Positions 7,132-32,867 of a DNA stretch of 43,212 bases are shown one piece after another. The notes beneath the pieces are model-generated. The model ran no database searches, was not told where the DNA came from, and saw nothing but the letters and a program-made list of their open reading frames with translations. How positions within the stretch are numbered: the stretch's first letter is position 1; every line of letters begins with the position of its first letter. Source of the stretch: a virus; IMG/VR virus record IMGVR_UViG_3300035666_000051, positions 1-43,212 of that record; one strand, 5' to 3'. The position numbers and the translations under genes were made by a program.

Positions 7132-7139
7132 ATAAATAT
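7132..7139 (-). promoter_or_regulatory. Late-type element ATATTTAT before gp13-like gene
   Basis: On the minus strand, ATATTTAT ends 15 nt before the gp13-like ATG. It overlaps the end of the superoxide dismutase gene. Confidence 0.55.
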
Positions 7140-10471: not shown

Positions 10472-10870
10472 TTACTTAACTTCAACGTTTGTTCTCCCGT
10501 CGTTCCAATATTCTTCACCACCATAATAAACAAAAATTTCTTCATCTTGTTCTATGTCTCTTGAAGCAAAAAATTCAAAGGTGTCGTTTTCTATATTTGA
10601 CCTCCAGTTGGCGTTTGGGGTATTACTATGGTTGTAGTAACTAGAAAATCCCATCCCCACAACTTGTTTGTCCCAATCAGATGTTCCTTGAGGCCAATTG
10701 AACCGATAGTTCATCAAAATGGCGCTCGAGGTTTTTTTAGGGATTTCTAAATCCAAATAAGGGGTGACCTCGAAAATTTCGTCTTTGAGAATTTTCTGAG
10801 AGGCAAAAACTCCTTTACCATGAATTGGACTATTGTCCAAGTATATTTTTGTTGACGGATATAAACGCAT
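10472..10870 (-). CDS. SET-domain protein, probable lysine methyltransferase
   Basis: 132 residues starting MRLYPSTK. A longer frame back to 10936 exists, but it would run through the divergent promoter region into the plus-strand gene, so I chose the ATG at 10870. SET landmarks: GKGVFAS at 18-24 (SAM-binding loop), FSSYYNHSNTPNANW at 75-89 (the NHS/pseudoknot motif) and DEEIFVYYGGEEYW at 109-122, containing the closing aromatic residues. There are no post-SET cysteines, as in other small bacterial SET proteins. The family transfers methyl from SAM to protein lysines. The substrate is unknown; it could be a host nucleoid, ribosomal or virion protein. It is directly upstream of, and presumably co-expressed with, the SNF2 gene. 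Confidence 0.88.
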   Translation of the reverse strand: MRLYPSTKIYLDNSPIHGKGVFASQKILKDEIFEVTPYLDLEIPKKTSSAILMNYRFNWPQGTSDWDKQVVGMGFSSYYNHSNTPNANWRSNIENDTFEFFASRDIEQDEEIFVYYGGEEYWNDGRTNVEVK

Positions 10871-10900
10871 AGCTTTTGATTGAAATATAACAAACAGAAA

Positions 10901-10909
10901 TATATTTAT
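10901..10909 (+). promoter_or_regulatory. Late-type element TATATTTAT, 4 nt before ATG 10914
   Basis: Exactly 4 nt separate the element from the ATG of the gp14-like gene, as at 2391 and 41827. It lies in the 43-nt divergent gap to the SET gene. Confidence 0.65.
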
Positions 10910-10913
10910 CAAT

Positions 10914-11429
10914 ATGGCAGAAAACTTAGTTCCCATAACTAGACTTGGTAAGTTCTTCGGTGGTGAAGATTATGCTCTTGATATTGATATGGGTCAGGAA
11001 TGGTTGATTGGTGATATGAACTTCACCGTTGTTTTGTATAGAATTGACAGATATAAAACCAAAACAGATGATGTCTACGGTGAGGTGTTGGAAGATGGAA
11101 TCCAATTCTTAGCGCCTGTTGAGCTGAAAGGTTATGTTCAGGTTTTAGCCCCTACAAATAAATTCCTCGGAAACTCAAGAGTAGAACAACAAGAACCTGG
11201 TAATATGAGGTTCAGTGTTTATCAAAAAACCTTGGATGATTTACAAGTTGAAATTTTCATGGGTGATTATTTGGGATATTATGAAAGTGAGGATAGAGTT
11301 AGATACTATGTTGTCTCAGATGATGGGTATGTTAAGTCGGACAATAAACACACTTATGGTGGATACAAACCATTTTACAGAACGGTTGTCGCTACTTATG
11401 TTAGTGAAAATGAATTCAGGGGTATATAA
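10914..11429 (+). CDS. Putative neck protein (gp14-like position)
   Basis: A 171-residue beta-rich protein. It contains TDDVYGEVLEDGIQFLAPVEL, QEPGNMRFSVYQKTLDDLQVE, GDYLGYYESEDRVRYYVV and a C-terminal TYGGYKPFYRTVVATY. The combination of a D-x-Y/F-GE motif, a strand describing a coordinate system with D/GDYLGYY, and a PFYR/Q ending resembles the core of T4-type gp14 neck proteins (PFYQLG). It is followed by a gp15-like gene as in T4 (13-14-15-18-19). I read it as a gp14 analogue on pattern and synteny only. TATATTTAT lies exactly 4 nt before the ATG, the same spacing as in front of gp25 and the 2404 gene. Confidence 0.72.
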   Translation: MAENLVPITRLGKFFGGEDYALDIDMGQEWLIGDMNFTVVLYRIDRYKTKTDDVYGEVLEDGIQFLAPVELKGYVQVLAPTNKFLGNSRVEQQEPGNMRFSVYQKTLDDLQVEIFMGDYLGYYESEDRVRYYVVSDDGYVKSDNKHTYGGYKPFYRTVVATYVSENEFRGI

Positions 11430-13162: not shown

Positions 13163-16100
13163 ATGGCAACAACAACTGTAAACCAAAAAGTTTATGTTTC
13201 ACCTGGCGTCTATACTTCTGAGACCGACTTATCATTTGTGGCTCAAAGCGTTGGTGTAACAACATTAGGTTTGGTAGGAGAGACTATCAAAGGTCCTGCT
13301 TTCGAACCTGTTTTCATAACAAACTATGATGAGTTTCAAGCCTTCTTTGGAGGAACTGAACCTGTGAAGTTTGTAAATACACAAATTCCAAAGTACGAAG
13401 CTGCATACATTGCAAAATCTTACTTACAACAATCAAACCAACTTTTTGTAACAAGAGTGTTGGGATTGTCTGGTTACGATGCGGGTCCATCTTGGAGTAT
13501 TTCCTTGGTGGCAAATCCTGACCCAACAACAATTGATATTGACACAGGAGTTGCTGCAATCAATTTTACAAGTGTGTTCTCAGGAAACACTGGTGGAACA
13601 GTAAATTTCTCAAGTTTACCAGGGGTAATTGCAACAAACTTCAATAGTCTTTATACTTTGAATGATGGTAGTACTTCTACTTTCAATAACGATTTTACTG
13701 ATGCGTTGTTGTCTGTATTTTCTAACAACAGTTTATCAGGTAATACAGCATTTGCTTGGGGAGCAATTCCAAGTTCAAATTATTTAAACGTATTAAGTGC
13801 TGGATATACCGGTTTCACAAATGAATTCGGTGTTGATAATGTTAACTTGGACAATAATGATTTGTCTGCAGGAGACAATGATGCTTGGTACTACGCTAAC
13901 TTTGATTTACAAACAGGTAATGATTATGGTGGTTATTCATTTTATTGGGCAATTAATCAAATGATTAATCCAAGTGTTGGAGTTTTCTCAGGAACTGTAT
14001 CAGGAACAATTTTTACATATTCGGGAAGTGCGTTCAGTGAGTGGAATAATATGGTTGTTGCAACACTTCGTTCAAGAGGTATATCTTTGTTTACGAACAG
14101 TTCCACAAGTCTTAACCACGGACCAATATATGAGGTTACTGGATTAACTGACGTTGATTTAATTTGTACTGGACAATACACCGGAGTTACACAAAATCCT
14201 TTCTCTCTTTTTGGAATTTCAGGTGTTACTAAAGATGGTGATACTTTCCAATTTGAAACCTCTCTTCAATCTACATCTTCTGAATACATTACGAAAGTAT
14301 TAGGTGTTGACAACTTTGGTAAACCAAGAAACGAGGTTCCTCTCTTTGTAGAAGAAATATATCCGGGTTCTTTAACATATGGATATAATCTAAGTTATAT
14401 TAGAGGATTAAATTGTAATTTGATTGCTTTACCAGGTGCTAGACCAGCAACAGGAACTCCTTCAAGTTCTTCAATTGCTTGGAAACTTCAAAAATATCAA
14501 TCTCCTAAAACACCTTTCATTGTTTCTGAATTAAGAGGTAATAAAGTGTATGATTTGTTTAGATTTATCTCAATATCTGATGGAGATGCTGCAAACTCGG
14601 AGGTAAAAGTTTCTATTGCTAATATGTCATATAATAATATGACTTTCGATATTTTGATTAGAAATTTCTTTGACACAGATGCTAATCCAGTTGTAATTGA
14701 GAAGTTCACCAATTGTACAATGGACCCAGGCTCTAACAACTTCGTTGCTAAGAAAATTGGTTCTTCAGATGGTGAGTTTGCATTAATTTCAAGATATGTA
14801 ATGGTTGAAATGGCTGAAAATGCCCCAATTGACGCATTACCTTGTGGATTTAATGGTTACACTCAAAGAATTTATGAAAGTGCTACAAATCAAGGACCTA
14901 ATATTGTTTACAAAACAAGATATTTTTATCCTCAAGAAACAATTTGGAATCCTCCTTTTGGAAATACATCAGGTGGACCTAACACTACTTTAGCTCCTGG
15001 TGATGTTATAAGAAGAACATATTTAGGTTTCTCATCTTACTATGGTATTGATGATTCTTTCCTACAATATTTGGGACAACAAAACCCTCAAATTGATTGG
15101 GCTGATACAACTGAATCTATTCCTTGGAACGGACTTACTAAAGGTTTCCATATGGACTCAGGTGCTACTGTAATTTCAATAGGAAATATCTACACAACTA
15201 GTGGACAACCAGCATATGAGTGTGGTGTAGCTAACTTTACAGCTGACCCTGAAACTCAAGAAAACCCTTACTACTTCATTTATTCAAGAAAATTCACAGT
15301 ATGTTTTGCTGGTGGATTTGATGGATGGGACATTTATAGTGAACATAGAACAAATGAAGACAGGTTCCAACTCGGAGCGTCAGGTTACTTAGCTGGGGCG
15401 GCACCTTCTGTAAGATATCCAAATGCTACAGGTCAAGGACTGTTCAAGAGAATTGTTGTAGAAAACAATACTCAAGACTTTGCTAACACTGACTACTACG
15501 CTTATTTGTTGGGTATTTTGACATACCGTAACCCTGAATCAACTAACATTAACGTTTTCGCAACTGCAAGTATCGACTACGTAAATAACTCTAACTTGTG
15601 TGAAGAAGCAATCGACATGATACAGTTCCAAAGAGCTGACTCTGTTTATATTGTTACTACACCTGACTACGATATGTATAGTCCTGATGGAAGTGACTCA
15701 CTACAAATTATTTACCCTCAGGAGGCTGTAGATAATTTGGATAACACAGGAATTGACTCTAACTATACTTCAACTTACTATCCTTGGATTTTAACAAGGG
15801 ATACTGTTAACAACACACAAATCTATCTACCAGCAACTGGTGAGGTTTGTAGAAACTTAGCTTTGACTGACAACATTTCCTTCCCTTGGTTCGCAACAGC
15901 GGGTTACACAAGAGGTTTGGTAAATTCTATCAAAGCGAGAGTTAAGTTGACACAAGAAGATAGAGATACTCTTTATCAAGGTAGAATTAATCCTATCGCA
16001 ACATTTGCTGATGTAGGAACCGTAATTTGGGGTAATAAAACACTACAAGTTGCAGATACCGCACTTAACAGATTAAACGTAAGAAGATTGTTGTTACAAG

Positions 16101-16378
16101 CTCGTAAATTAATTTCAGCTGTAGCGGTTAGATTGTTGTTCGAACAGAACGACCAAATCGTGAGACAACAGTTCTTGGATAGTGTGAACCCAATCCTCGA
16201 TGGAATTAGAAGAGATAGAGGTCTTTACGATTTCCGTGTAACAGTTTCTTCTTCTCCTGAAGATTTGGACAGAAACACATTAACAGGTAAAATTTACCTT
16301 AAACCAACGAAAGCTCTTGAGTTCATTGATATTGAATTCTTTATCACACCAACAGGAGCTTCGTTCGAAAATATCTAA
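13163..16378 (+). CDS. 18: Contractile tail sheath protein, gp18-like
   Basis: 1071 residues, much longer than T4 gp18 (659). The N-terminal VYVSPGVYTSETDLSF and LGLVGETIKGPAFEPVFITN followed by YDEFQAFFGG is the standard sheath start. The C-terminal part is also standard: INPIATFADVGTVIWGNKT, RLNVRRLLLQARKLISAVAV, DGIRRDRGLYDFRV and a final strand FIDIEFFITPTGA. About residues 130-650 hold extra glycine/serine/asparagine-rich beta domains, probably displayed on the outer surface of the tail. The protein polymerises around the tube and contracts on infection. The promoter element ATATTTAT is 34 nt before the start. A strong G/C-rich terminator follows the stop. Confidence 0.95.
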   Translation: MATTTVNQKVYVSPGVYTSETDLSFVAQSVGVTTLGLVGETIKGPAFEPVFITNYDEFQAFFGGTEPVKFVNTQIPKYEAAYIAKSYLQQSNQLFVTRVLGLSGYDAGPSWSISLVANPDPTTIDIDTGVAAINFTSVFSGNTGGTVNFSSLPGVIATNFNSLYTLNDGSTSTFNNDFTDALLSVFSNNSLSGNTAFAWGAIPSSNYLNVLSAGYTGFTNEFGVDNVNLDNNDLSAGDNDAWYYANFDLQTGNDYGGYSFYWAINQMINPSVGVFSGTVSGTIFTYSGSAFSEWNNMVVATLRSRGISLFTNSSTSLNHGPIYEVTGLTDVDLICTGQYTGVTQNPFSLFGISGVTKDGDTFQFETSLQSTSSEYITKVLGVDNFGKPRNEVPLFVEEIYPGSLTYGYNLSYIRGLNCNLIALPGARPATGTPSSSSIAWKLQKYQSPKTPFIVSELRGNKVYDLFRFISISDGDAANSEVKVSIANMSYNNMTFDILIRNFFDTDANPVVIEKFTNCTMDPGSNNFVAKKIGSSDGEFALISRYVMVEMAENAPIDALPCGFNGYTQRIYESATNQGPNIVYKTRYFYPQETIWNPPFGNTSGGPNTTLAPGDVIRRTYLGFSSYYGIDDSFLQYLGQQNPQIDWADTTESIPWNGLTKGFHMDSGATVISIGNIYTTSGQPAYECGVANFTADPETQENPYYFIYSRKFTVCFAGGFDGWDIYSEHRTNEDRFQLGASGYLAGAAPSVRYPNATGQGLFKRIVVENNTQDFANTDYYAYLLGILTYRNPESTNINVFATASIDYVNNSNLCEEAIDMIQFQRADSVYIVTTPDYDMYSPDGSDSLQIIYPQEAVDNLDNTGIDSNYTSTYYPWILTRDTVNNTQIYLPATGEVCRNLALTDNISFPWFATAGYTRGLVNSIKARVKLTQEDRDTLYQGRINPIATFADVGTVIWGNKTLQVADTALNRLNVRRLLLQARKLISAVAVRLLFEQNDQIVRQQFLDSVNPILDGIRRDRGLYDFRVTVSSSPEDLDRNTLTGKIYLKPTKALEFIDIEFFITPTGASFENI

Positions 16379-17335: not shown

Positions 17336-17824
17336 ATGGCTGATTTACTGATGAAAATGCCAATACCTTATGAACCGAAACGACAGAATCGATTCATTCT
17401 TAGATTTCCTTCTTCATTGGGTATAAATGAGTGGTTTGTTGAATCTGCAGCAAGACCATCTATTAAAATCGCATCAAAAGAAATTGAATTTTTGAATACG
17501 TCGACTTTCGTTGCGGGAAGATTTAATTGGGACCCAATTTCCGTTAAGTTCAGAGACCCAATTGGTCCTTCAGCAGCACAAGCACTTATGGAGTGGGTAC
17601 GTTTACACGCCGAGTCTGTGACAGGTCGTATGGGATATGCTGCGGGTTACAAAAAAGATATCGACCTCGAAATGTTGGACCCAACGGGTGTTGTTGTAGA
17701 AAAATGGATTTTATACGGAACATTCTTAACCTCTGTAAACTTTGGTTCATTAGCATACAACACAGACAACTTAGCTGATATTACAGCGGAACTTAGAATG
17801 GACAGATGTGTGTTAGTATACTAA
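17336..17824 (+). CDS. 19: Tail tube protein, gp19-like
   Basis: 162 residues, the same size as T4 gp19 (163). The pattern MPIPYEPKRQNRFILRFPSS, SIKIASKEIEFLNTSTFVAG, NWDPISVKFRDPIGPSAAQAL, the helix EWVRLHAE, MGYAAGYKKDIDLEMLDPTG and a closing strand VVEKWILYGTFLTSVNFG is that of T4-type tube proteins, which stack in hexameric rings inside the sheath. The gene sits downstream of sheath, as in T4, separated only by the HAD gene. TATATTTAT is 34 nt before the ATG, the same spacing as for sheath. A 10-bp stem terminator follows. Confidence 0.95.
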   Translation: MADLLMKMPIPYEPKRQNRFILRFPSSLGINEWFVESAARPSIKIASKEIEFLNTSTFVAGRFNWDPISVKFRDPIGPSAAQALMEWVRLHAESVTGRMGYAAGYKKDIDLEMLDPTGVVVEKWILYGTFLTSVNFGSLAYNTDNLADITAELRMDRCVLVY

Positions 17825-17895: not shown

Positions 17896-18642
17896 ATGGA
17901 AGATAAATCAAGAGAATTCGGTCAACAGTTTTTAAGTTTACCACACGACGTAGTACCACTCCCCTCAGGAGGGAGATTTTATAAAAACAAAAAGAAATCC
18001 CTCAAGGTTGGATATTTGACAGCCGCAGATGAGAATATCTTATTGGGTGGTACAGATGATATCACAGGTTCTTTATTAAGAAACAAAATCTATGAACCTG
18101 ATATGAGGATTGATGATTTGTTAGAGGGAGATGTTGAAGCGATTTTGATTTTCTTGAGAAACACATCATTTGGTCCTGAAATGCAACTAACTTTGATTGA
18201 CCCTCAAACTAAAAAGAGTTTTGATACAAATGTTAGATTGGATGAATTGGATATAAAACAACCGAAACAAGAACCAAACGAAGACGGAACATATAACACC
18301 ACACTACCAAAGTCGGGAGTTAATGTCAAATTAAAAATTCTAACCTACGGAGAACAAACGGAACTTCAAAAAATTTTGGACTCATATCCACAGGGTAGAG
18401 TACCACCTAAGGTAACACTTTTATTACAAAGACAAATATTGGAGGTAGATGGTAATTCGGACAAGGGAGAAATTGCGAAATTTGTTGAACAACTCCCAAT
18501 ATCAGATTCCAAATACATAAGAAATTTCTTGTTTGATAATGAACCAAGATTAGATTTAAGAAGAGTTGTAATTGCCCCATCAGGAGAAAGACTAACCGTG
18601 AACGTTAGTTTTGGGGTTGAATTTTTTCGCCCTTTCTTCTGA
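17896..18642 (+). CDS. 26: Tail assembly chaperone / baseplate hub assembly protein, gp26-like
   Basis: 248 residues. The region VVPLPSGGRFYKNKKKSLKVGYLTAADENILLGG is the signature of the T4 gp26/T4-baseplate family (PLPS-G--Y-------V--LT--DE-IL). A central part (DDLLEGDVEAILIFLRNTSFG, LKILTYGEQTELQKIL) follows the same family. The gene lies between tube and tape measure, where long-tailed phages keep the chaperone that coats the tape measure. The frame stops at TGA 18640, but the next frame continues for 48 sense codons without its own good start, and a TTTTTTC slip site lies at 18622-18628. This gene probably also gives a frameshifted product of about 295 residues. Confidence 0.82.
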   Translation: MEDKSREFGQQFLSLPHDVVPLPSGGRFYKNKKKSLKVGYLTAADENILLGGTDDITGSLLRNKIYEPDMRIDDLLEGDVEAILIFLRNTSFGPEMQLTLIDPQTKKSFDTNVRLDELDIKQPKQEPNEDGTYNTTLPKSGVNVKLKILTYGEQTELQKILDSYPQGRVPPKVTLLLQRQILEVDGNSDKGEIAKFVEQLPISDSKYIRNFLFDNEPRLDLRRVVIAPSGERLTVNVSFGVEFFRPFF

Positions 18643-20771: not shown

Positions 20772-23700
20772 ATGGCAGGTAGCCCATTAGATTTAGTAAA
20801 CTCAGATGCTTTCAGAAAAAAGTTAATCACAAGGAACCTAACACCTTATGCTAAGGCTCCTAACAGACCTTCATTACCCACCAATCTTCCATATATACAA
20901 ACAGATAGCTCTGTACAAGATAGTCCTGACCAACTAATTGATGAACCTTCATTTGCTAACCAATTATACCCTCTAAATCAATGGGGGGCAGAAGGAGGAT
21001 TTCAACAAGTACCTGACCCTGGTGCACTTCTCAACACCAAATCAAACGAGGGCGAATACGGACCAGGTCAACAAGATGCTCACATATTAGACCAAGCCTC
21101 AATTGAACAATACAATTGGAAACCCAAAAATGCGTATTCCAATGGTACTCAAGAAGTTTTAGATAGTGGTGAGTATATTACTGAGCCTGATTGGATAAGA
21201 AGCGGTACACCAAATCTATATAATAACCAACCATATCCAACGACATTTGTACCCTCAGCATACGCACCAGTATCAATTCTTCTTTCACCAGACCCAGTTG
21301 GTAGTAACGGTCTGATGAGTCAAGACTCTTTTTTGGCTCAATTGGGTTCCAAAACACTTAAAAAAGAATTTCAAGAGAGAATTGCAACAAACATATATCA
21401 AAATACAGTAGGAAGAGCAAACCTATTTAATGTGAATAGTGGTACGGATATTCTCAATTTGGTTACCACCAGAGTTCCTTTGATAGAGCCGAATTGGGTG
21501 ATTACAGTCCCCGAAAATCCAATACTTGCAGCATCAGATTTTGCTTTGAGATTAGCGGGAAGTATAATCCCTGTTTCACCTATACCTGGCTCTTATTTTG
21601 ACACAAGTATAGTATTAGGTCAACCAACAACAATTCAACAGATTCGTAATGCTTTCAGACAATCAAATAGTGGTATAGGAAAGTTTTTCAATAGACTTCT
21701 TGGAGCAGACAGGACAGGGTCTCAAATTTTCTTAAATAATACTGGTGGTGGGCAAAAATCTAGATTGTTTGGTAATTTAAAATTCAACAGATTTAAACCA
21801 GGTTACGATAGAAACATTTTCGATAGATTGGGAGGAGTTCTTGTTGGGGCAAGAGAAAACAACTCTAATTTTTATATTGGTTCTGTCACTTCAGAACCAT
21901 CACAAATATTTTCACCAGCAGGAGATTTACCTGTTAGTGAGTTCGGTGCTGAGGTACAAGCCCCTGTTTATGGTCCGAGTGAACTAGCTCAACTATATGA
22001 GGGACCGAATAGAGAAATCAGATTGGGTGCGAATGCACCGGCTTATGCAGATGGTGGAGGTTTAGAAGGGGGGTTGACTTGGGTTTCTCCAAAATATAAA
22101 GGTAATGCTGGTAAAAAAGTTGGTATAGGTGGTGAAGTAACAAACCCTGATGAAAATTTCAGACCATCCTCATATGTTACTACTGAGTCCACAAATATCG
22201 CATTCAGGAACGGGTCCATAATGGACGACACCCAAAGATTGATTGATAGCCAACCTAATGGTGGAAGAAGATTACAACACGTTGGAAATGCAATTGACCA
22301 AGTAAGTAAGGTATTTCATGACGGTTATAGAGAAATGACAAAAGGTTCAAGAATTCTAACTTATGTCGGTTCTTTAGGACAGGAGGTTGGTTCAGAGTAT
22401 TGTAGAGTTTTTGCTAAAGATTTACCCTACGCAGAATATTCAGACCTTCAAAAGACCGATGGAGTGGTTAATGAGGGTAGAAGATTTTCTTATTCCGTTT
22501 TTGACAAAACGTACAATCTGAATATTACACCAAACAAACAAGAAGGTGGACAAGATTCATCAAACCTTATAGGAACGGGTGACCAAGCTTATGCAAAAAA
22601 ATACATGTTCTCCATTGAAAATTTAGCATGGAGAACTTCACATACACCTGGAGTTAATGTAAATGATTTGCCTATTTGTGAAAGGGGACCAAACGGAGGA
22701 AGAGTAATGTGGTTCCCACCTTATGGATTGACCTTCAGTGAGAGCTCAAGAGCGTCATGGAAACCCCAGGACTTTTTGGGTAGGCCCGAGAAAGTTTACA
22801 CATACACAAACTCAGAGAGAGATGGTACAATCACTTGGAAAATTGTTGTAGACCACCCCTCTGTGTTGAATGTGATTGTAAATAAAGTACTTGCAAATAA
22901 TTCAAGCTCCGAAAGAATTAATGGGCTTCTTGACTCATTTTTTGCGGGTTGTAAAAAATATGACTTGTATGAGTTGGCAAAAAAATATTATACAATTTCA
23001 CCAAACGAACTATCAGTATTACAACAAATAATTTCTTCTAAAGATGCAAGTAGAGAGGTTGTTGGTGCAATCAGAGACAATCAAGCGTCAGGAGGATTAG
23101 ACACAGGAAACCAAAGTCAAAGTTCAACTCAACCTAATCAACAAACACCTTCACAGAACTTTCAACAATTTGAAAACTTCGCATTATTTTTTCCAAACGC
23201 CCAACCAGTTGAAAATTCAACAGTCTCTAACTACACCGATTACTTCAACATTTACAATTCTCAGATGAATGGAACTTATCAAGGTGCATCTGTAACCTTT
23301 TTCGACGACGTAATTGCAAAAAATTATGATGAAATCCAAAATAAATTTGTGGACGAATTAGCACAATATTTGAAAGACAATACAAATTCTGTTGTCACGA
23401 TTTTCTTGGAGGCTTCAGCTTCCGCACCAGGTACAAATGATTATAACTTGAAACTATCTCAAAGGAGAGGGGAAAGTGTTATCAAGTTTTTTTCAGAGAA
23501 TAGTAAATTGAAAAATTATGTTTCTAACAGAAGAATTGTTTTTCCTCCTGTGAATGCCCAAGGTGAGAATGGTGAAGTAAGACAATACAATGGAACAACA
23601 TATATTCCGAACGTAAAAACGCAAAGATGTTCTGAGATTGTAAGTAATTCTTCAAATCTCAACGACAGTAATCCTAATATAACAAATCAAACTGCGATGG

Positions 23701-25751
23701 CTTGTAGAAGAGTTAGTATCTCAAAAATCCAAGTTAGCAGCCCACAACAAGTTCAACCGCCTGCTCAACCTAACATACCAACAGGGTCGGGTTTACCCTC
23801 GACTAATCAAGAGAGACCAATTCCGAGAACAGACGTTGAACCTAAATTTATAAAATCAGATTTGGTCACTAAAAGAATTGTAAGAAACTTGATTTCGGAG
23901 TGTGATTATTTTGAAACGATAAAACAAGAGACGCCCATGGTTTATGATAACTTAAAACAAAAACTTAAGTTTTTTCAACCAAGTTTCCACTCCACAACTC
24001 CTGAAGGATTGAATTCAAGGTTGACTTTCCTCCAACAATGTATGAGACCAGGAGATACAATTCCAACTGTGAATCCACAACCAAATGGTAATTACCAATT
24101 GGATTTCAATAACGCAATAAATTCTGCATTTGGAATACCACCGGTTTTGGTTCTTAGAATTGGAGATTTTTATCACACTAAGATTATTCCTAATAGTTTA
24201 CAATTGAAGTTTGAAGGTTTGGATATTAACCCTGAGGGAATTGGTATTCAACCTATGATTGCTGAGGTTACCCTTAGTTTCAATTTTGTAGGTGGACAGG
24301 GACTCGCAACCGCAATAGATAGATTACAAAACGCACTTTCTTTCAACTATTATGCGAATACTGAGATGTGGGACGAAAGAGCTGATGCGACAGATACTGA
24401 AAATTTGAAAGTATTAAGTAATGAGTTTCTTCAGATGGTACAAATGCCTTCCGCACCAACAACAAACCAAGTTCAAAATACAGGGGGTCTTAACAACGCT
24501 AATACGATTGGAAATAAAGTAAGTAGTAATATTTCCTCAACCGGAGAAACGGGTGTGATGAGTTATACACAATTTATGGATACACTATCCAATCAAACTC
24601 AAACATATTTCCAAAACGTATTCAACCAAAGTAGAAGTACTTTCAGACAATATAACAACGCAATTCTACAGCAATGGTCTTTGAATAACATTTATCAAAG
24701 TGGAAGTTTGTTATCAAACCCATCTCAACCAAACGAAATTTTACTCTACGGGAAAAACGATTCTTACCAAAGTAACATTGATAGAATTTTCGAAGACCTA
24801 ATAAGAGATATTAAAAATGATTCAGACGGTTTCGTCAAATTAATCAATTCTTCGGGTGTTAATTTCTCAGGTAAGGCTCAGAGATTGATTAAAGACAACT
24901 ATTTGAATTTTGTTAAAAACAAAAGAAATACTTATTCAAACCCGTTGGCAAAACTAATTCAAGATACTACATACAACCAACAAAATTATATTCAATACCT
25001 TTCAAGAGTTAATACAGTGTTATTTGTTACAGGTCCTAATAATGGTACAGATGGATTTCAACAAAAAAACGGAAATGTTGTTGTGTATGATTTACAACAA
25101 AAAACAAATGAATACACCGAAATGGTTGAAGACGGTGCTAAAATAGGACAAGGTATTCTTGACTATTATAATGTTTTGAAGAGTCAAACTGATTTCAAAG
25201 TTGGTGACAAAAGTTATTCTGGATATTTGACATATTGGGACTCATCCTCCAACCCACAACAACTAACAAATGAAGTATTCATACCTTTCAGTAAGAATAT
25301 TCTATTTGGTGAAAAAGAGTTTAGAAGACAATATGCTATTCTATCAAATGATATCAAGGCTGAAAATTATAATAATTTCAAAACCGCCATTATAGGACAA
25401 CTATTGACAGACCCAAGCTTGGCTGGTAGAAATGGAAGAGACAACTTCAATGAGGTGTTTGACCAATATTGGTTGAAAACGGCAAAACCTCTTTTTGACG
25501 AGGAAGATTCTTTAACAAATACATTTTTAGATACCTTAGAAAAGGATAAACTGAAAAACTTTTTGAATTTCACACCATATCCTTCGGGTAAAGTTAGAGA
25601 ATTTAACTTCAATAGAACCGATTCTCCAAGTAATGACCAAAAGAAATTGATAAAATCTTTGGGGGCTGTTAACAATAGTGAAAGAAATAAATCAAGTTGG
25701 AATTCATCTGACGGGGCAAATGTTTATATTTCAAAAGTAAAACTTAACTAA
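20772..25751 (+). CDS. Large baseplate/tail protein with OmpA-like insert
   Basis: 1659 residues. The N-terminal ~800 residues are proline/asparagine/glycine-rich and probably structural, with a compact part at about 500-770 (LAWRTSHTPGVNVNDLPICE, GGRVMWFPPYGLTFSESSRA). Residues about 800-985 look like an OmpA C-terminal (peptidoglycan-binding) domain: a helix DEIQNKFVDELAQYLKDN, strand VVTIFLEASASAPGTNDYN, the hallmark LKLSQRRGESVIKFF and a closing ACRRVSISKI. Residues about 1125-1200 (GIPPVLVLRIGDFYHTKIIP, INPEGIGIQPMIAEVTLSFN) resemble a tail-tip fold. It lies between tape measure and the gp53-like gene, so it is probably a baseplate hub or wedge component. TATTTAT elements occur 12-22 nt upstream. 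Confidence 0.75.
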   Translation: MAGSPLDLVNSDAFRKKLITRNLTPYAKAPNRPSLPTNLPYIQTDSSVQDSPDQLIDEPSFANQLYPLNQWGAEGGFQQVPDPGALLNTKSNEGEYGPGQQDAHILDQASIEQYNWKPKNAYSNGTQEVLDSGEYITEPDWIRSGTPNLYNNQPYPTTFVPSAYAPVSILLSPDPVGSNGLMSQDSFLAQLGSKTLKKEFQERIATNIYQNTVGRANLFNVNSGTDILNLVTTRVPLIEPNWVITVPENPILAASDFALRLAGSIIPVSPIPGSYFDTSIVLGQPTTIQQIRNAFRQSNSGIGKFFNRLLGADRTGSQIFLNNTGGGQKSRLFGNLKFNRFKPGYDRNIFDRLGGVLVGARENNSNFYIGSVTSEPSQIFSPAGDLPVSEFGAEVQAPVYGPSELAQLYEGPNREIRLGANAPAYADGGGLEGGLTWVSPKYKGNAGKKVGIGGEVTNPDENFRPSSYVTTESTNIAFRNGSIMDDTQRLIDSQPNGGRRLQHVGNAIDQVSKVFHDGYREMTKGSRILTYVGSLGQEVGSEYCRVFAKDLPYAEYSDLQKTDGVVNEGRRFSYSVFDKTYNLNITPNKQEGGQDSSNLIGTGDQAYAKKYMFSIENLAWRTSHTPGVNVNDLPICERGPNGGRVMWFPPYGLTFSESSRASWKPQDFLGRPEKVYTYTNSERDGTITWKIVVDHPSVLNVIVNKVLANNSSSERINGLLDSFFAGCKKYDLYELAKKYYTISPNELSVLQQIISSKDASREVVGAIRDNQASGGLDTGNQSQSSTQPNQQTPSQNFQQFENFALFFPNAQPVENSTVSNYTDYFNIYNSQMNGTYQGASVTFFDDVIAKNYDEIQNKFVDELAQYLKDNTNSVVTIFLEASASAPGTNDYNLKLSQRRGESVIKFFSENSKLKNYVSNRRIVFPPVNAQGENGEVRQYNGTTYIPNVKTQRCSEIVSNSSNLNDSNPNITNQTAMACRRVSISKIQVSSPQQVQPPAQPNIPTGSGLPSTNQERPIPRTDVEPKFIKSDLVTKRIVRNLISECDYFETIKQETPMVYDNLKQKLKFFQPSFHSTTPEGLNSRLTFLQQCMRPGDTIPTVNPQPNGNYQLDFNNAINSAFGIPPVLVLRIGDFYHTKIIPNSLQLKFEGLDINPEGIGIQPMIAEVTLSFNFVGGQGLATAIDRLQNALSFNYYANTEMWDERADATDTENLKVLSNEFLQMVQMPSAPTTNQVQNTGGLNNANTIGNKVSSNISSTGETGVMSYTQFMDTLSNQTQTYFQNVFNQSRSTFRQYNNAILQQWSLNNIYQSGSLLSNPSQPNEILLYGKNDSYQSNIDRIFEDLIRDIKNDSDGFVKLINSSGVNFSGKAQRLIKDNYLNFVKNKRNTYSNPLAKLIQDTTYNQQNYIQYLSRVNTVLFVTGPNNGTDGFQQKNGNVVVYDLQQKTNEYTEMVEDGAKIGQGILDYYNVLKSQTDFKVGDKSYSGYLTYWDSSSNPQQLTNEVFIPFSKNILFGEKEFRRQYAILSNDIKAENYNNFKTAIIGQLLTDPSLAGRNGRDNFNEVFDQYWLKTAKPLFDEEDSLTNTFLDTLEKDKLKNFLNFTPYPSGKVREFNFNRTDSPSNDQKKLIKSLGAVNNSERNKSSWNSSDGANVYISKVKLN

Positions 25752-26071
25752 TGTATCCATATTACAATAGATATACGGAATTTTTATTGAACGGACAACA
25801 ATCCGTGGTTCCGTTTGTGACGTTGCCTTCAAAATCTACCGATAAGAGTTACATTTATAAGGTTGGTCAAAGTAGATTGGATAAGGTCTCACAACAGTTT
25901 TATAATTCACCTGTTTACAATTGGTTGATACTACAAGCCAATCCAATATTCGGGGGATTAGAAAACACAATCTATGATGGGGCAATATTAGTCATTCCGT
26001 TTCCTTTGGTTCCTTCTTTACAGGATTATAAGTCGGCGGTAGAAAACTATTTTTATTATTATGGCAGGTAA
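25751..26071 (+). CDS. 53: Baseplate wedge protein, gp53-like with LysM-like core
   Basis: 106 residues. The central YIYKVGQSRLDKVSQQFYNS ... YNWLILQANPIFGG ... AILVIPFP is a LysM-like unit (Y.V..GD.L..IA..YYG....W..I..AN.I.....I..G..L.IP), as found in T4 gp53, the wedge protein that joins neighbouring wedges. Its ATG overlaps the previous stop (TAATG) and its end overlaps the next gene by 11 nt, so the three are translated as one unit. In other contexts this fold is a peptidoglycan-binding LysM; in the baseplate it serves a structural contact. Confidence 0.75.
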   Translation: MYPYYNRYTEFLLNGQQSVVPFVTLPSKSTDKSYIYKVGQSRLDKVSQQFYNSPVYNWLILQANPIFGGLENTIYDGAILVIPFPLVPSLQDYKSAVENYFYYYGR

Positions 26072-29000
26072 TTTTCAAGGTGACTTGAGCGGTGATATTT
26101 TGGTTGAGTTTGACTATAATAACATCGTAATTGTTGACCCAAATAAAACAGTTGATAGTAAAGGAGTAATCAGTGAAAGATTACTTGACCACGAGAATTT
26201 GGTTATGTATGCCAATCTCGAAGCCCAAGTTTTACCAAGAACAAAACTATCTCTTGGAACACAACCTGGTGAGAACGTAAGCACCACAATGACAATTGCG
26301 GGTATCAATTTCTTGAAACCAAATAAGGACAATTATATGACGTCAGGTTATTTGGATGAACTAACAGGAAAAAATAGTTTAGTTGGTAGGGGTCAAAATC
26401 AAATGTCAGAGCAAAGGAAAGTTGATTCAAAAAACAACGCATATTTTGCTCGAGGTGTTGTTGACAGTCAGAGTATAGTTGATAATGGATTGTTGGGGAT
26501 TACTTCAATATCGGTAAAGACTTCGACTTCATTTATACCTTCCGTTTCAATGCAACTTGAAGATGTTCAAGGAAGAGCCCTATTTCAACTCGGGGACCAA
26601 TCCCCATATGCCGCGTTTTTCAACTTACCTTACCCTCAATTCTATCTTACTCTTAAAGGGTATTACGGTCAAGCAATTCGTTACCAACTTAATTTAGAAA
26701 AGTTTGATGCTAGATTTAATTCCACAACAGGAAACTATAGTATTACTTTAGAATTCAAAGGTTTTAAGTTCAATATTTTGAATGAGATTTTGGTATCTCA
26801 TCTGATTGCAACACCTCACATGTATAACAAAAGATTTAGTGTAACGAATAACGTTGCTCAGGCGAACACTTCAACTAATAACAGAACTCTACAAACGCAA
26901 GAATCGGGTGCTCAAACAGGAAAAATAAATACTGGTCAAGATGCACCTGTAAAATCTGTAACAGAATTAGTCACGGAGAGAGGTTATGAAAAAATAGTTG
27001 AAGTTTACAGTGAATATAAAACCAAAGGATTAATTCCTCCTGATTTTCCAGAATTAACCCTGATGCAGTTTGTTTATAAAATGGATATGTTTGAACAAAA
27101 CGTTATCAATTCTTATCCTAAAGCAAACGTTGAACCTCTTACCGATATCAAGAATTTTCAAAAAACACTCACAAGTTTATTTGATAAATTGAGAGGTTCA
27201 AGCACCGCTAGTTGGTTTAGTATAAATTTAGACCCAAGACCAATAGTCTTGGAAAACGGGAGTTTAGTTTATTACTTTAAGGAGAATATAAGACAAAATC
27301 CCCAAGCGAGACAACTTGCTTTAGATGAACTGAAAAACATTATTCAGTCTTCTGTAAAGACTTTGTCTGAAAACCCTTCCGTTGGATTGGGAAGAAAGTT
27401 AGAAATCAAACTAAATAATTTAACCTATCAAAATTTATTTTTCAATTTAAATCTCAGTGATATCAATGAGAGAGAGACTGCTGCCAGATATTTTAACCTA
27501 TTCGATGTCACGGACCAAGATACTATTAATAGAAGTAACGAAGAAATAAAAAGACTATTTGTTTCCAATCCTACAATTTCAAATCTACCGAATTTCAGTT
27601 TCTTCACTTTTGAGGGACAAGATAGGTTTGATAACGTTATCAAAACAATCAATGCCGAAGCGTCACAAAAGCTGTCACAACTTCAACAAGCCATAACCGA
27701 TGACTTAGCTGCGTTCATTCAAGATAGTGCGACGGGAATTGGATTTAGACCAACCGTAAGAAACATTACTGCTGTAATTATGGCAAATGCAGAAGCCTTT
27801 ATCAGATTGATGGAGGAGGTTCATACAAATTCTTGGAATGTAAGAAACAACCCTGTCAGAAAACTTGTTATTCAAGACACATCTAAGTCCGCTCCAAATA
27901 CCGAAGCCATTTACAAAATTGGAATAACACAACAAGCGGCTCAACAAAACCAAGGAATTGTCACAGGTGAAGAACCTGTTTACCCTTGGCCGCAGTTTTT
28001 CATTGAGTCTCCTGATGATAAAAAAGGAAGGTTTCAACTAGAATACCTTGGTCATCCTTCTGTAGTAGGTCTAACTCAAGCCTACAACTTCAAGATTTGG
28101 CCCGAAGTAGAGTTTGTGGAGGAATATATTAAAGGATTGAATCAAAAAGACAACCCTCCCTCATCTCAACCACCATTAGATTCTCAACTAACAACCTTCT
28201 TAACACAAATTAACGCAATACAGTTCCCTCCGGATAATTTGGCGTATTTCAATAAGCAACAAACAAGATTTTTATATGAGATTTGGGAGCGACAATATGT
28301 TACCGCTCACTATTCAAATTATATTCGTATAAATGCAAATCAGAGAAACCAACTTATCACGACAAACTTTTCAAGTGAAACACAAAACATCGTTCTCAGC
28401 TTGGGTGAAAGTAATCCTTTTTTGAGTTTCACCCTAAAAAATCAACCTCTCAGTTCTCAATTTTATATTCCTTATTTGAGAGAAATTTCAAACAATGGAA
28501 CAGGTGCACTTTGGGTAAATTTCTCAAGTGGAATTTTCAACACACCATACATTAGAGAAGATGTAGAAAACCCATTTGTAATTTACAAAACATCTGAATT
28601 AGGACTAAACCCCGAAACGAACATACCACTGAGGTCATTAGAACAAATAGTTTTGAATTCAGGCACTGAGCCATTAATTATTGATACATATCCATTTACA
28701 AGTCAATCTTGGGTCAGAGACAATATGTCTTTGAGTAATCAAGCTCAAGGAAATGAAGTTTACAGTACAAACAAAAGTTTGAAAGTCTATAAAGACAGGA
28801 ATGTCATTTCAAATTTTACAAACATTTTTAGTTATACAGAAAATAGACCAGTGACAAACTTTTGTTACTATGATGCCGTTCAACCAACAATAGTTAATTC
28901 AAATCAAGGAACTGAAGTTGCGGATATCAAGTTATTTTATCAGTCCGAACTTCCTAAGAATTTTATTCCAACGGTGGGATATGTTTTTAATCCATTAGCA

Positions 29001-32000
29001 AACAAAACTAATTTACCTGAAAGACAAACCACTTCCATTTTGAATTCACCTTACTTTGTAAATGCGGTTCTTAATGGGGTTCAGAATGAAAAGAATAGAA
29101 AAGAATATCCATATGTACAAGCGGCATATTTGTTTTTGAATTCCCTACCATTGGGAACATTGAGAGAAAGATATAAAACGTTTGGACAAACTGAGGAATT
29201 GGATTACATTGCTTCTTGTTTTAATAAGTTCGGTGCTTTACATAAAATCCCATACGTTTGGATTTTGAAAATAGGTTCCATTTGGCACAGATACAAAAAT
29301 TTTGTTGAAAAGAATACAGATATTTTGGATAACACGGTTTGGACCAATTTCGATTATGTTAAAAACTATGACCCTAAAACTCAATCTAAAACGAAGGTTT
29401 ATAAATTCAAACCTAACTCAGGAAGTGCTCAAGATACTTCAATAGTTTTAGAGTCAACAGCCAACAATGACATCAATATCAACACAGGATTTTATCCTGG
29501 ATTGATGAATAGTTTTTCATATTTCTATAATGGTGTAGATTTATTCAAAGATTATTCTGACGCAGAAATTCAATCAGCGGTAAACGATAAATTACAATTA
29601 TTCAATTTCCCTAACTCATCTATTTCTGCCAAAGAAGGGGGTAAAAACTTAACCTTGAAAACATGGTCAATTCTTTTACCTAGTACGTTGAAAGACGCGT
29701 CAACTTCTCTGAATACTTGTTTATTACCTCCAACAAATAACCAAACTACCTCTACATCAGAGAAATATTTTATTGTTCCATCATTCGGAATTAACGTAAA
29801 TCAAACGAAATCTCAATGTTTGAATAACCCAACTGTACCACAACAAACTGTTGAACCAATTGTGAATAATAACTCAATGTACAATGGTTCTGTCAGAACA
29901 CTTTGGGCGGCGCCAAACTACGGATACTTCAATTCTACCGTCTTGAAAAAACCTGAACCTGACGAATACTTCACTACAATATTTCCAGATACATCTGACC
30001 AATCTCCAATCATGTTTAATTCCTCGTTGAATTATTCAAAGATAGAAGAGATATTTGGTGTATTTGATAGGAGAGAATTAAATTTGATGGAAAAAGAATT
30101 CTTGGAATTTTGTAGACCAGCTTCGTCCGTTAAATATCAAAGAGTAAAGTCAGGTGATGGTGCGTTCATAATTGACATAGATGTAAATTTCAGAAATTTT
30201 CAAATCTTTTTGAGAAACAATATGTTGGTGGAAACAAACCAATCAGCACAAAATCAAATTGAGTTTTATAAAAAAGCGATTGAGATTCAATATGCAAACT
30301 TCAAAAACAACATCAAAAATTTGATGGAATATGATGTTTTACTTAAAAACGGAAATCCATCAAAATTCAACAGAAGAGTTTTTAACTCTTTTTTACAAAC
30401 ACCAGGGTTCGAAAGACCAATTATTTTCAAGCCATATGTAAAGGGAAGTTTACCAACAAGCGGAGGTACAACTACACTCGTACAATCTCAAACAACATAT
30501 CCGAGAGAATGGGCGGCACTTAAAACAGAAGTAGGATTTTCTACAATATCTGGTTTGAGGTATTCGAATAACGGTTCTTATATAACAGATTTCTTTGTTG
30601 ACAATGATATTGAGTTCAGTGTAAACAATATCACCCTATTATATCAAGTAATTAAAATTTACGCAACTCAAAAATTGAAAAACCCATCTTTGGTTTCCTC
30701 AACTTTCAAAAATAGTTTACAAACCTTTTTGGGGAACGAAACAGATTTACAAAATCAATTTTTGAATGAAGTTATTTCAAATGTCAAAAATCAAATAAAA
30801 GAAATTCCAACACCTGTTGAACAAAATATAAGAAGTACGTTGTCAGGGACTCAGGGTAAAGCTGAGTTGTATAGTTTGTTTAGAGCACTAAATGATAAGT
30901 GGATTGCAGGCACTGATTATGTATCGAAAACATTGTTCGAAGACTTTTTGTTCTTGGATAGAGCCTCGAGAAATATCGGAGACACTATTTTAGTTGACAT
31001 CTTTGCAGTAAAAAATCTAATCAACAGAAATGCGTTAAACGAACAAATGAGTGTATACACTCTATTGAGTGGTTTACTTATTCAAAATAATTTTACTGTA
31101 ATGCCATTACCTGCTTATGTGAATTATTACAACGTATTGAATGTTGATGGTTCAGTAACACCAAACACAGAGAGTATTAAGAATTTTGGAAATAACCTAT
31201 GGGGTACCTTTACCACAGTCGATTATAGAAACTCCACACCCAAAATGGTATGTTTCTATGTGGGTAAACCATCTGAACAATTACCACTTCCGAGACAGAT
31301 ATCTGGATATGGAGATGACGGGTTTGATATTCGTAACCCCAACAATCCTTTGATTGAAAACCAACAAGATAAACAAGATTGGAATTATTCCAATAAGGTG
31401 GTTGGATTTACTGTTGATATTGGAATTAGAAACCAAAATGTCTTTCAAAATTTTTCAGTTTCTCAAGATACAGGAAAGGCAACTTCGGAAGCAATTGCGG
31501 CTTTGATTGCGATGACCGACCAAACCAACACAAGGAATGTGGCAACTCAAAATGCTAGTCTATACAATTTGTATAAACGTAGAAGTTATCAATGTGACGT
31601 ACAATGTTTGGGTAATGCTCTTATTCAACCAACGATGTATTTTAATTTGAGACACGTTCCAATGTTCTATGGTCCGTACATGATTACCGAGGTTACTCAT
31701 ACAATAACTCCAGGAGATTTTACAACAAATTTCAAAGGAGTAAGACAAGGATATTTTGATTTTCCACAGATTGACAATTTTATACAAAAAATTAATCAGA
31801 ACCTTTTAAGCAAAATAGAGGCTCAGATTTTCCAACAATCCGACCAAAAAAATAACTTACCAACAAGTCAACAGGCAAAAGAAAACAATATTATAGTCAA
31901 CACTACATCGGTACAGGCTGCTGCTGAAGAGGCTTGTTATAATAACAGAGCACCTCAATTTTCAACTTACATAACACAGGCCTTGGGTCTAACACAACGT

Positions 32001-32867
32001 TCTCAAAATGAATTTGCTGATGATATCAAACGCAAATTCCCGACAAACCAACAATTACAAACCCTTATTTATATTCTTTCATACGTAAGGACCTATTCAA
32101 CTCCAGGAAAACAGGGTGGTAATTTCCAATCTGCAAATTGGAATTTCGCTGATATCACATTGGATAAATCCTTACCTGGTAACAGCGTACAAAACATACA
32201 ACAAGGATTTTACACTTGTAAAAAAGTTCAAACAGCAGACGGAAAAGGGTTGTCATTGCCAACGGCTAGATTTGTCTCGGAGGACAAGTATTTGGATTTT
32301 ATGGGGGCACTTTTGACTGAAAGAGTTTCACAAATCGTTCAAGGTTATATTATACAATATTATTGTACAGAGTTTCCATCATCGAATATAAGTCTTGAGT
32401 ATTATCAGAAAAACCAACAATCAATAGATAATAGATTCAAAACAATTTTTGAACAAGCCGTTGACAGTGCCAAATCATTAGGTTTCAAAACAGATTTCCC
32501 TGTTTTACCGCCTTCACAATCAGGTACTACTAACAACTTAAATACCACAACTGCAGCACCATTATGTCCTTCAACCACATTAACATCTGTTACACCATCT
32601 GACGGTAAGCCAGGTACAATAGTTACCTTAGATGGTACGTACATGGAGTATATAAGAACAATAGAAATCGGAGGAGTTCCTTCTAATCTATGGACAAGAG
32701 CCGAACCTTCTACATACCAATTAGTTTCATCGACAAGGGTTAAGTTTTCTATTCCATCAATTCCATCGATAACTACACCAACGAATTTGAACATAAGAGC
32801 GATAACAACCACAAGTGGTCCTAATGGAATAATACTCCCAATAACCTTCACCTTTATCCCAAGTTAA
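26061..32867 (+). CDS. Giant baseplate hub/tail protein with C-terminal TIG/IPT domain
   Basis: 2268 residues, the largest gene here. The N-terminal 270 residues read ILVEFDYNNIVIVDP, YFARGVVDSQSIVDNGLLGI and then FIPSVSMQLEDVQGRALFQL with LPYPQFYLTLKGYYGQAIRY, a tail-hub type beta start. Around 1843-1900 the segment CDVQCLGNALIQPTMYFNLR, YGPYMITEVTHTITPGDF, TNFKGVR has the pattern of the gp27/gpD hub fold (a ring-forming barrel, Y.I..V.H.I..G.F.T...G.R). Residues 2169-2268 are a TIG/IPT immunoglobulin-like domain (SVTPSDGKPGTIVTLDGTYM, IEIGGVPS). It is expected in the baseplate centre; the terminal TIG domain might bind surface polymers. Confidence 0.78.
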   Translation: MAGNFQGDLSGDILVEFDYNNIVIVDPNKTVDSKGVISERLLDHENLVMYANLEAQVLPRTKLSLGTQPGENVSTTMTIAGINFLKPNKDNYMTSGYLDELTGKNSLVGRGQNQMSEQRKVDSKNNAYFARGVVDSQSIVDNGLLGITSISVKTSTSFIPSVSMQLEDVQGRALFQLGDQSPYAAFFNLPYPQFYLTLKGYYGQAIRYQLNLEKFDARFNSTTGNYSITLEFKGFKFNILNEILVSHLIATPHMYNKRFSVTNNVAQANTSTNNRTLQTQESGAQTGKINTGQDAPVKSVTELVTERGYEKIVEVYSEYKTKGLIPPDFPELTLMQFVYKMDMFEQNVINSYPKANVEPLTDIKNFQKTLTSLFDKLRGSSTASWFSINLDPRPIVLENGSLVYYFKENIRQNPQARQLALDELKNIIQSSVKTLSENPSVGLGRKLEIKLNNLTYQNLFFNLNLSDINERETAARYFNLFDVTDQDTINRSNEEIKRLFVSNPTISNLPNFSFFTFEGQDRFDNVIKTINAEASQKLSQLQQAITDDLAAFIQDSATGIGFRPTVRNITAVIMANAEAFIRLMEEVHTNSWNVRNNPVRKLVIQDTSKSAPNTEAIYKIGITQQAAQQNQGIVTGEEPVYPWPQFFIESPDDKKGRFQLEYLGHPSVVGLTQAYNFKIWPEVEFVEEYIKGLNQKDNPPSSQPPLDSQLTTFLTQINAIQFPPDNLAYFNKQQTRFLYEIWERQYVTAHYSNYIRINANQRNQLITTNFSSETQNIVLSLGESNPFLSFTLKNQPLSSQFYIPYLREISNNGTGALWVNFSSGIFNTPYIREDVENPFVIYKTSELGLNPETNIPLRSLEQIVLNSGTEPLIIDTYPFTSQSWVRDNMSLSNQAQGNEVYSTNKSLKVYKDRNVISNFTNIFSYTENRPVTNFCYYDAVQPTIVNSNQGTEVADIKLFYQSELPKNFIPTVGYVFNPLANKTNLPERQTTSILNSPYFVNAVLNGVQNEKNRKEYPYVQAAYLFLNSLPLGTLRERYKTFGQTEELDYIASCFNKFGALHKIPYVWILKIGSIWHRYKNFVEKNTDILDNTVWTNFDYVKNYDPKTQSKTKVYKFKPNSGSAQDTSIVLESTANNDININTGFYPGLMNSFSYFYNGVDLFKDYSDAEIQSAVNDKLQLFNFPNSSISAKEGGKNLTLKTWSILLPSTLKDASTSLNTCLLPPTNNQTTSTSEKYFIVPSFGINVNQTKSQCLNNPTVPQQTVEPIVNNNSMYNGSVRTLWAAPNYGYFNSTVLKKPEPDEYFTTIFPDTSDQSPIMFNSSLNYSKIEEIFGVFDRRELNLMEKEFLEFCRPASSVKYQRVKSGDGAFIIDIDVNFRNFQIFLRNNMLVETNQSAQNQIEFYKKAIEIQYANFKNNIKNLMEYDVLLKNGNPSKFNRRVFNSFLQTPGFERPIIFKPYVKGSLPTSGGTTTLVQSQTTYPREWAALKTEVGFSTISGLRYSNNGSYITDFFVDNDIEFSVNNITLLYQVIKIYATQKLKNPSLVSSTFKNSLQTFLGNETDLQNQFLNEVISNVKNQIKEIPTPVEQNIRSTLSGTQGKAELYSLFRALNDKWIAGTDYVSKTLFEDFLFLDRASRNIGDTILVDIFAVKNLINRNALNEQMSVYTLLSGLLIQNNFTVMPLPAYVNYYNVLNVDGSVTPNTESIKNFGNNLWGTFTTVDYRNSTPKMVCFYVGKPSEQLPLPRQISGYGDDGFDIRNPNNPLIENQQDKQDWNYSNKVVGFTVDIGIRNQNVFQNFSVSQDTGKATSEAIAALIAMTDQTNTRNVATQNASLYNLYKRRSYQCDVQCLGNALIQPTMYFNLRHVPMFYGPYMITEVTHTITPGDFTTNFKGVRQGYFDFPQIDNFIQKINQNLLSKIEAQIFQQSDQKNNLPTSQQAKENNIIVNTTSVQAAAEEACYNNRAPQFSTYITQALGLTQRSQNEFADDIKRKFPTNQQLQTLIYILSYVRTYSTPGKQGGNFQSANWNFADITLDKSLPGNSVQNIQQGFYTCKKVQTADGKGLSLPTARFVSEDKYLDFMGALLTERVSQIVQGYIIQYYCTEFPSSNISLEYYQKNQQSIDNRFKTIFEQAVDSAKSLGFKTDFPVLPPSQSGTTNNLNTTTAAPLCPSTTLTSVTPSDGKPGTIVTLDGTYMEYIRTIEIGGVPSNLWTRAEPSTYQLVSSTRVKFSIPSIPSITTPTNLNIRAITTTSGPNGIILPITFTFIPS

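Follow-up and report, generated by a model that had tools for sequence, protein, structure and literature searches.

An OmpA/Pal-fold domain with a serine-for-aspartate ligand pocket in a predicted tail-hub protein of large uncultivated phages

The window analysed here, a stretch of viral DNA of 43,212 nucleotides (IMG/VR record IMGVR_UViG_3300035666_000051), carries a T4-like tail cluster on its plus strand that is syntenic with that of Flavobacterium phage immuto. The tail sheath (13163..16378, +) and the gp19-like tail tube (17336..17824, +) match the immuto sheath and tube at 4e-47 and 2e-33, and the T4-type baseplate hub subunit (17896..18642, +; PF12322) matches immuto gp039 at 1e-13. 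The protein of interest, a 1659-aa tail-hub protein encoded by the open reading frame at 20772..25751 (+), is syntenic with immuto gp035. It is followed by a small baseplate wedge-like protein (25751..26071, +; phrog_7145, 5e-5 to immuto gp034) and by a 2268-aa putative hub protein (26061..32867, +), which has a weak match to the tail protein phrog_52 and corresponds to immuto gp033 by position, with no significant sequence match between these two. The order in the window is thus sheath, a 274-aa protein, tube, T4-type hub subunit, a 636-aa protein, the OmpA-bearing protein, the wedge-like protein and the 2268-aa protein; immuto has the same order of sheath, tube, hub subunit, tape measure, a small protein, gp035, gp034 and gp033, which places the OmpA-bearing protein between the tape measure and the wedge/hub genes. 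The same series of gene sizes surrounds the hub protein in five relatives. The sheath is 1071 aa long in the window and 709 aa in immuto, and the extra length is unexplained. A gp25-like baseplate wedge gene (PF04965; 41834-42313, +) lies among replication genes, at a distance of about 9 kb from the tail cluster.

Direct homologues of the OmpA-bearing protein were not found by tblastn at 1e-5 among GenBank phages. A divergent relative pointed to immuto at an E-value of 0.3, and the link was then backed by synteny and by a profile of the protein's flanks, which matches gp035 with 20 bits; a match to a Gordonia thymidylate synthase (0.01) was set aside as chance. The earlier note on this DNA had placed the domain within a baseplate protein, and a baseplate-region or tail-hub location is borne out by the synteny with immuto. 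In BFVD, the flanking domain gives weak and short matches to CIS tube and tail tube proteins, with pLDDT in the flanks mostly below 70, and the VIA match lists are dominated by the OmpA domain. Gene order and these weak tube-like structural matches together suggest that the protein may form a ring at the junction of tube and baseplate.

Residues ~803-987 of this protein (23178..23732, +) make up a complete domain of the OmpA/Pal/MotB fold, as supported by Pfam, AlphaFold2 (AF2) and VIA. These boundaries lie close to the residues ~800-985 proposed from the sequence, and both motifs quoted there were recovered, EASASAPGTNDYNLKLSQRRGESVIKFF ungapped from residue 880 and ACRRVSISKI at residues 977-986. 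Pfam OmpA (PF00691) matches residues 857-939 with an E-value of 1.1e-6 and 29.3 bits, against a curated cut-off of 27.2, and scores 34.1 bits in the whole-record search. Among 16 relatives scanned, 12 have the Pfam match at E<=0.01 and several score under the cut-off. Searched against the PDB, a profile of the 16-member family retrieves OprF, Pal, PorE and YfiB (E 1.8e-5 to 2e-3), and the OmpA-type motif is kept across 81 non-redundant phage sequences. In the middle of the protein, AlphaFold is confident for the OmpA domain only, with a core pLDDT of ~80-94 from 16 sequences and up to 96 from 53 sequences. Overlay of the confident model on known structures gave PorE, Pal and OmpA as the best matches: the VIA Z-scores are 9.3 and 10.2 for PorE (the latter with an rmsd of 3.7 over 135 aligned residues), 9.8-10.0 for Pal and OmpA, and 9.2 for TagL, and Foldseek ranks PorE and OprF at the top. 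A chance or low-complexity match as the source of the signal is ruled out by these Pfam, profile and structure matches. Since Pfam overlooks many divergent members and PHROGs gives no OmpA flag on the window protein, the domain has likely been overlooked in such phages so far.

The OmpA domain appears to interrupt another domain. The first half of this hub domain, residues 641-706 (22692..22889, +), is matched with an hhalign probability of 93.7 and an E-value of 2e-7, and with 4e-9 by the HMM of the contiguous domain. A proposed second half, residues 1123-1172 (24138..24287, +), is in register and weak (hhalign E 0.025). Between the halves lies a stretch of ~416 residues (22890..24137, +) containing the OmpA domain, where immuto, Mel-JY01 and LR756508 have ~20-35 residues. 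The contiguous domain of ~190 residues is found at or near the C-terminus of immuto gp035 (716 aa), of a Microcystis phage protein (2255 aa) and of a protein of LR756508 (1579 aa), a 484-kb phage; none of these three proteins has a significant OmpA match, and the hub-domain profile has no matches in the bacterial genomes searched. Read most simply, these alignments point to an insertion of the OmpA-bearing stretch into the hub domain, or to its loss from there. Insertion is well supported for the left side only, the second half being in register and not significant.

Pocket residues were counted in an alignment of 81 distinct phage sequences. The earlier note had proposed canonical OmpA-type anchoring to diaminopimelate (DAP) and pointed to the contact pair of Asp and Arg. 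One half of this pair stands, with Arg899 kept in 81/81 sequences, and the other is gone: the Asp of the L-beta2-alpha2 loop is absent from the phage domain, and its position is taken by Ser884 (23421..23423, +) in all 81 phages and in all 25 members of a cellular subfamily described below. The rest of the pocket (23442..23468, +) is retained, namely Tyr891 in 79/81 and Asn892, Leu895 and Arg899 in 81/81 each, so that the Asn, Leu/Ile and Arg of the DAP pocket are all present. The fold and the retained Arg, Asn, Leu and Tyr speak for canonical anchoring, but for OmpA, Pal, PorE and TagL the side chain of the lost Asp is listed among the conserved contacts to DAP; because it is Ser in 81/81, canonical anchoring to DAP is not supported and we consider it very improbable. 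In PorE, Arg591 and amides of the main chain hold the DAP carboxylate. The amine is held by Asn584, by the main chain and by Asp576, the latter through both its side chain and its main chain; Tyr583 and Ile587 make hydrophobic contact, and the Asp supplies only part of the contacts (PMC7192894). The residues named for the TagL pocket are Asp486, Asn494, Leu497 and Arg501 (PMC8253398). Changing either residue in the OmpA of A. baumannii, by D271A or by R286A, is reported to have shown each to be critical for DAP binding (PMC6572160). Throughout the phage family, then, the alignment has one of the two classical contacts gone and the other fixed. Because Arg, Asn and the main chain also hold DAP in PorE, the Ser may keep part of the network.

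The conservation of the pocket stands out from that of the domain around it. Its five columns are 98-100% conserved (mean 99.5%), whereas the domain averages ~50%, and in 20,000 draws no set of five columns picked at random reached this value. Such strict conservation of the remaining pocket argues that some ligand may still be bound. A different account would make the domain a stable, ligand-free structural decoration, acting as a spacer or stiffener of the hub ring. The low conservation of the domain beside flanks at 75-88%, the loss of the Asp throughout and an invariant pair of cysteines confined to the phages would fit this, the pair possibly locking the fold. These cysteines, Cys953 and Cys978 (23628..23705, +), are invariant in 81 phage domains and do not occur at these places in 8 aligned cellular domains, and a disulfide between them in the virion is possible. 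The account leaves unanswered why the ligand-pocket residues are selectively conserved when they have no other evident function, and we regard it as quite unlikely.

The kinship of the phage domain leads to the envelope of the Bacteroidota. A search of Bacteroidota genomes with the phage domain profile returned a small group of strong matches (E 1e-18 to 7e-13), well apart from the generic OmpA domains of the phylum at 3e-8 and weaker. As read from their sequences, the strong matches are envelope-type proteins that combine propeller-like repeats with an OmpA domain; the phage protein does not have this architecture, and the domain alone is in common. The propeller-OmpA family is present in 135/199 genomes of the Fluviicola order (Flavobacteriales) vs 7/395 drawn from the phylum. 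Each of the 25 distinct cellular members inspected has Ser at the Asp position and keeps the Asn, Leu and Arg; a Ser at this position is also found in two generic Bacteroidota domains (L176 and L188). Profile alignment of the phage and cellular families by hhalign gave a probability of 99.5 and an E-value of 3e-23 over 164 columns, at ~25% identity. When OmpA domains from elsewhere in the Bacteroidota are included in a tree, the phage and Ser-type cellular rows fall together on one side of a branch with support 100/99, which is 100/98 once the motif columns and the N-terminal extension are taken out. On sequence grounds, the phage domain is kin to the Ser-type propeller-envelope subfamily rather than a generic OmpA domain. 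The tree is unrooted, and the transfer of the domain was likely from host to phage.

This kinship also bears on a further alternative, in which the phage domain mimics the host envelope family and binds its outer-membrane or periplasmic partner instead of peptidoglycan, as a secondary receptor contact. That the closest cellular kin are propeller-OmpA envelope proteins so frequent in the Fluviicola order, and that phage and cellular domains have in common the Ser as well as much of their length, would fit mimicry. No partner protein is known, however, the similarity stands at ~25% identity in the profile alignment, and the pocket that the phages conserve is the one in which known peptidoglycan binders hold their ligand; we therefore consider mimicry unlikely.

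The relatives of the window phage are large environmental, uncultivated tailed phages. Near-identical contigs of ~317-321 kb (L123, L124 and L126) carry the same hub protein, and the family thus includes jumbo phages. The host is probably a member of the Bacteroidota, judging from the kinship of the domain, the host of immuto, the superoxide dismutase of the window phage, whose best genome matches are in Bacteroidales, and the scarcity of Shine-Dalgarno sequences, none being obvious, in our reading, upstream of most window genes. Bacteroidetes-type promoters showed no enrichment, and the hub domain is also present in a Microcystis phage. The dismutase, a phage-encoded Fe/Mn enzyme (7139-8671, -), has a C-terminal extension of ~280 residues. 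Other genes in the window encode a protein in which a weak glycosyltransferase-2 match follows an HtrL_YibB domain (708-2387, +), a small SET-domain protein (PF00856, 54.7 bits; 10472-10936, -) and a ribonucleotide reductase with a match to the class II (B12-dependent) insertion domain (39764-41626, +).

Collectively, we tentatively favour, at a probability of about 45%, the reading in which the hub ring carries an inserted OmpA/Pal domain shared with host-type envelope proteins, and the non-canonical pocket of this domain would contact peptidoglycan. The OmpA/Pal domain of a Flavobacteriales-type envelope subfamily would sit in the middle of the hub domain of a ring protein in a large T4-like phage, and this ring, at the tube/baseplate junction, would display the domain on its exterior. 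As the tube passes the outer membrane, the domain would reach the periplasm, where the pocket formed by Tyr891, Asn892, Leu895 and Arg899 together with Ser884 may touch the stem peptide of peptidoglycan in a non-canonical manner. The contact would probably be weaker or re-specified, and may help the tail tip to hold or register on the wall. Contact of phage tails with the wall is usually ascribed to lysozymes, other hydrolases and LysM domains. A LysM domain was found in one of ten records searched, the window being among the nine LysM-free ones, and no VanY domain was found in nine related records; most of the records in both searches may be fragments. This scarcity leaves room for a wall-contact role of the OmpA domain. 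Several points weigh against peptidoglycan contact through the re-specified pocket: the Asp is lost in every sequence, and D271A alone was reported critical for DAP binding in A. baumannii OmpA (PMC6572160); the conservation of the pocket may be structural; and we infer both the host and the orientation in the virion, with a weak second half of the split domain.

A broader proposal, that an OmpA domain of the Bacteroidota envelope was captured for the hub ring by a widespread group of large phages, where it grips the target wall via a re-specified Ser-for-Asp pocket, is in our estimate doubtful. If it is true, the pocket would mark an unrecognised class of ligand in Flavobacteriales envelope proteins. 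For a large family of uncultivated phages, a tail hub with an envelope-type domain would be a further way of contacting the wall, and the Ser-type pocket ties phage tails to envelope proteins of Flavobacteriales that form an uncharacterised class. The OmpA domain is small and expressible, with clear predictions for point mutants.

Among known systems, Immutovirus gp035 holds the equal place in the tail cluster and matches the window protein in the first half of the hub domain; it has no OmpA domain, and the next-but-one gene, gp033, carries a VanY domain. The Ser-type propeller-OmpA proteins of Flavobacteriales (e.g., of the Fluviicola MAG L160) share with the phage an N-terminal LYF-ND-P motif, a [G/S]-x-[A/T/C]-S-[A/P] loop with Ser for Asp, the YN..L..RR and GE motifs and a closing (V/I)Y...A...RR/RK strand. 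They are proteins of ~440-860 aa with propeller-like repeats, whereas the phage domain resides in a tail protein and has the extra invariant Cys pair. The best structural match, the C-terminal domain of PorE (type IX secretion, T9SS; 6TOP), has the Arg, Asn and Tyr of the DAP pocket in common with the phage, as well as a hydrophobic residue at the Ile587 position, but bears Asp576 where the phage has Ser884, and PorE is a bacterial lipoprotein with a bound stem peptide (PMC7192894). A literature search on OmpA domains in phage baseplates turned up papers on type VI secretion, on polymorphic toxins and on unrelated subjects, and none that dealt with phages. The peptidoglycan-binding domain of TagL from type VI secretion is an OmpA fold within a contractile-tail machine, with Asn, Leu and Arg as in the phage and Asp486 where the phage has Ser (PMC8253398). 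TagL, however, is part of the membrane complex in the cell that fires and is anchored to the wall of that same cell, whereas the phage domain would meet the wall of the target.
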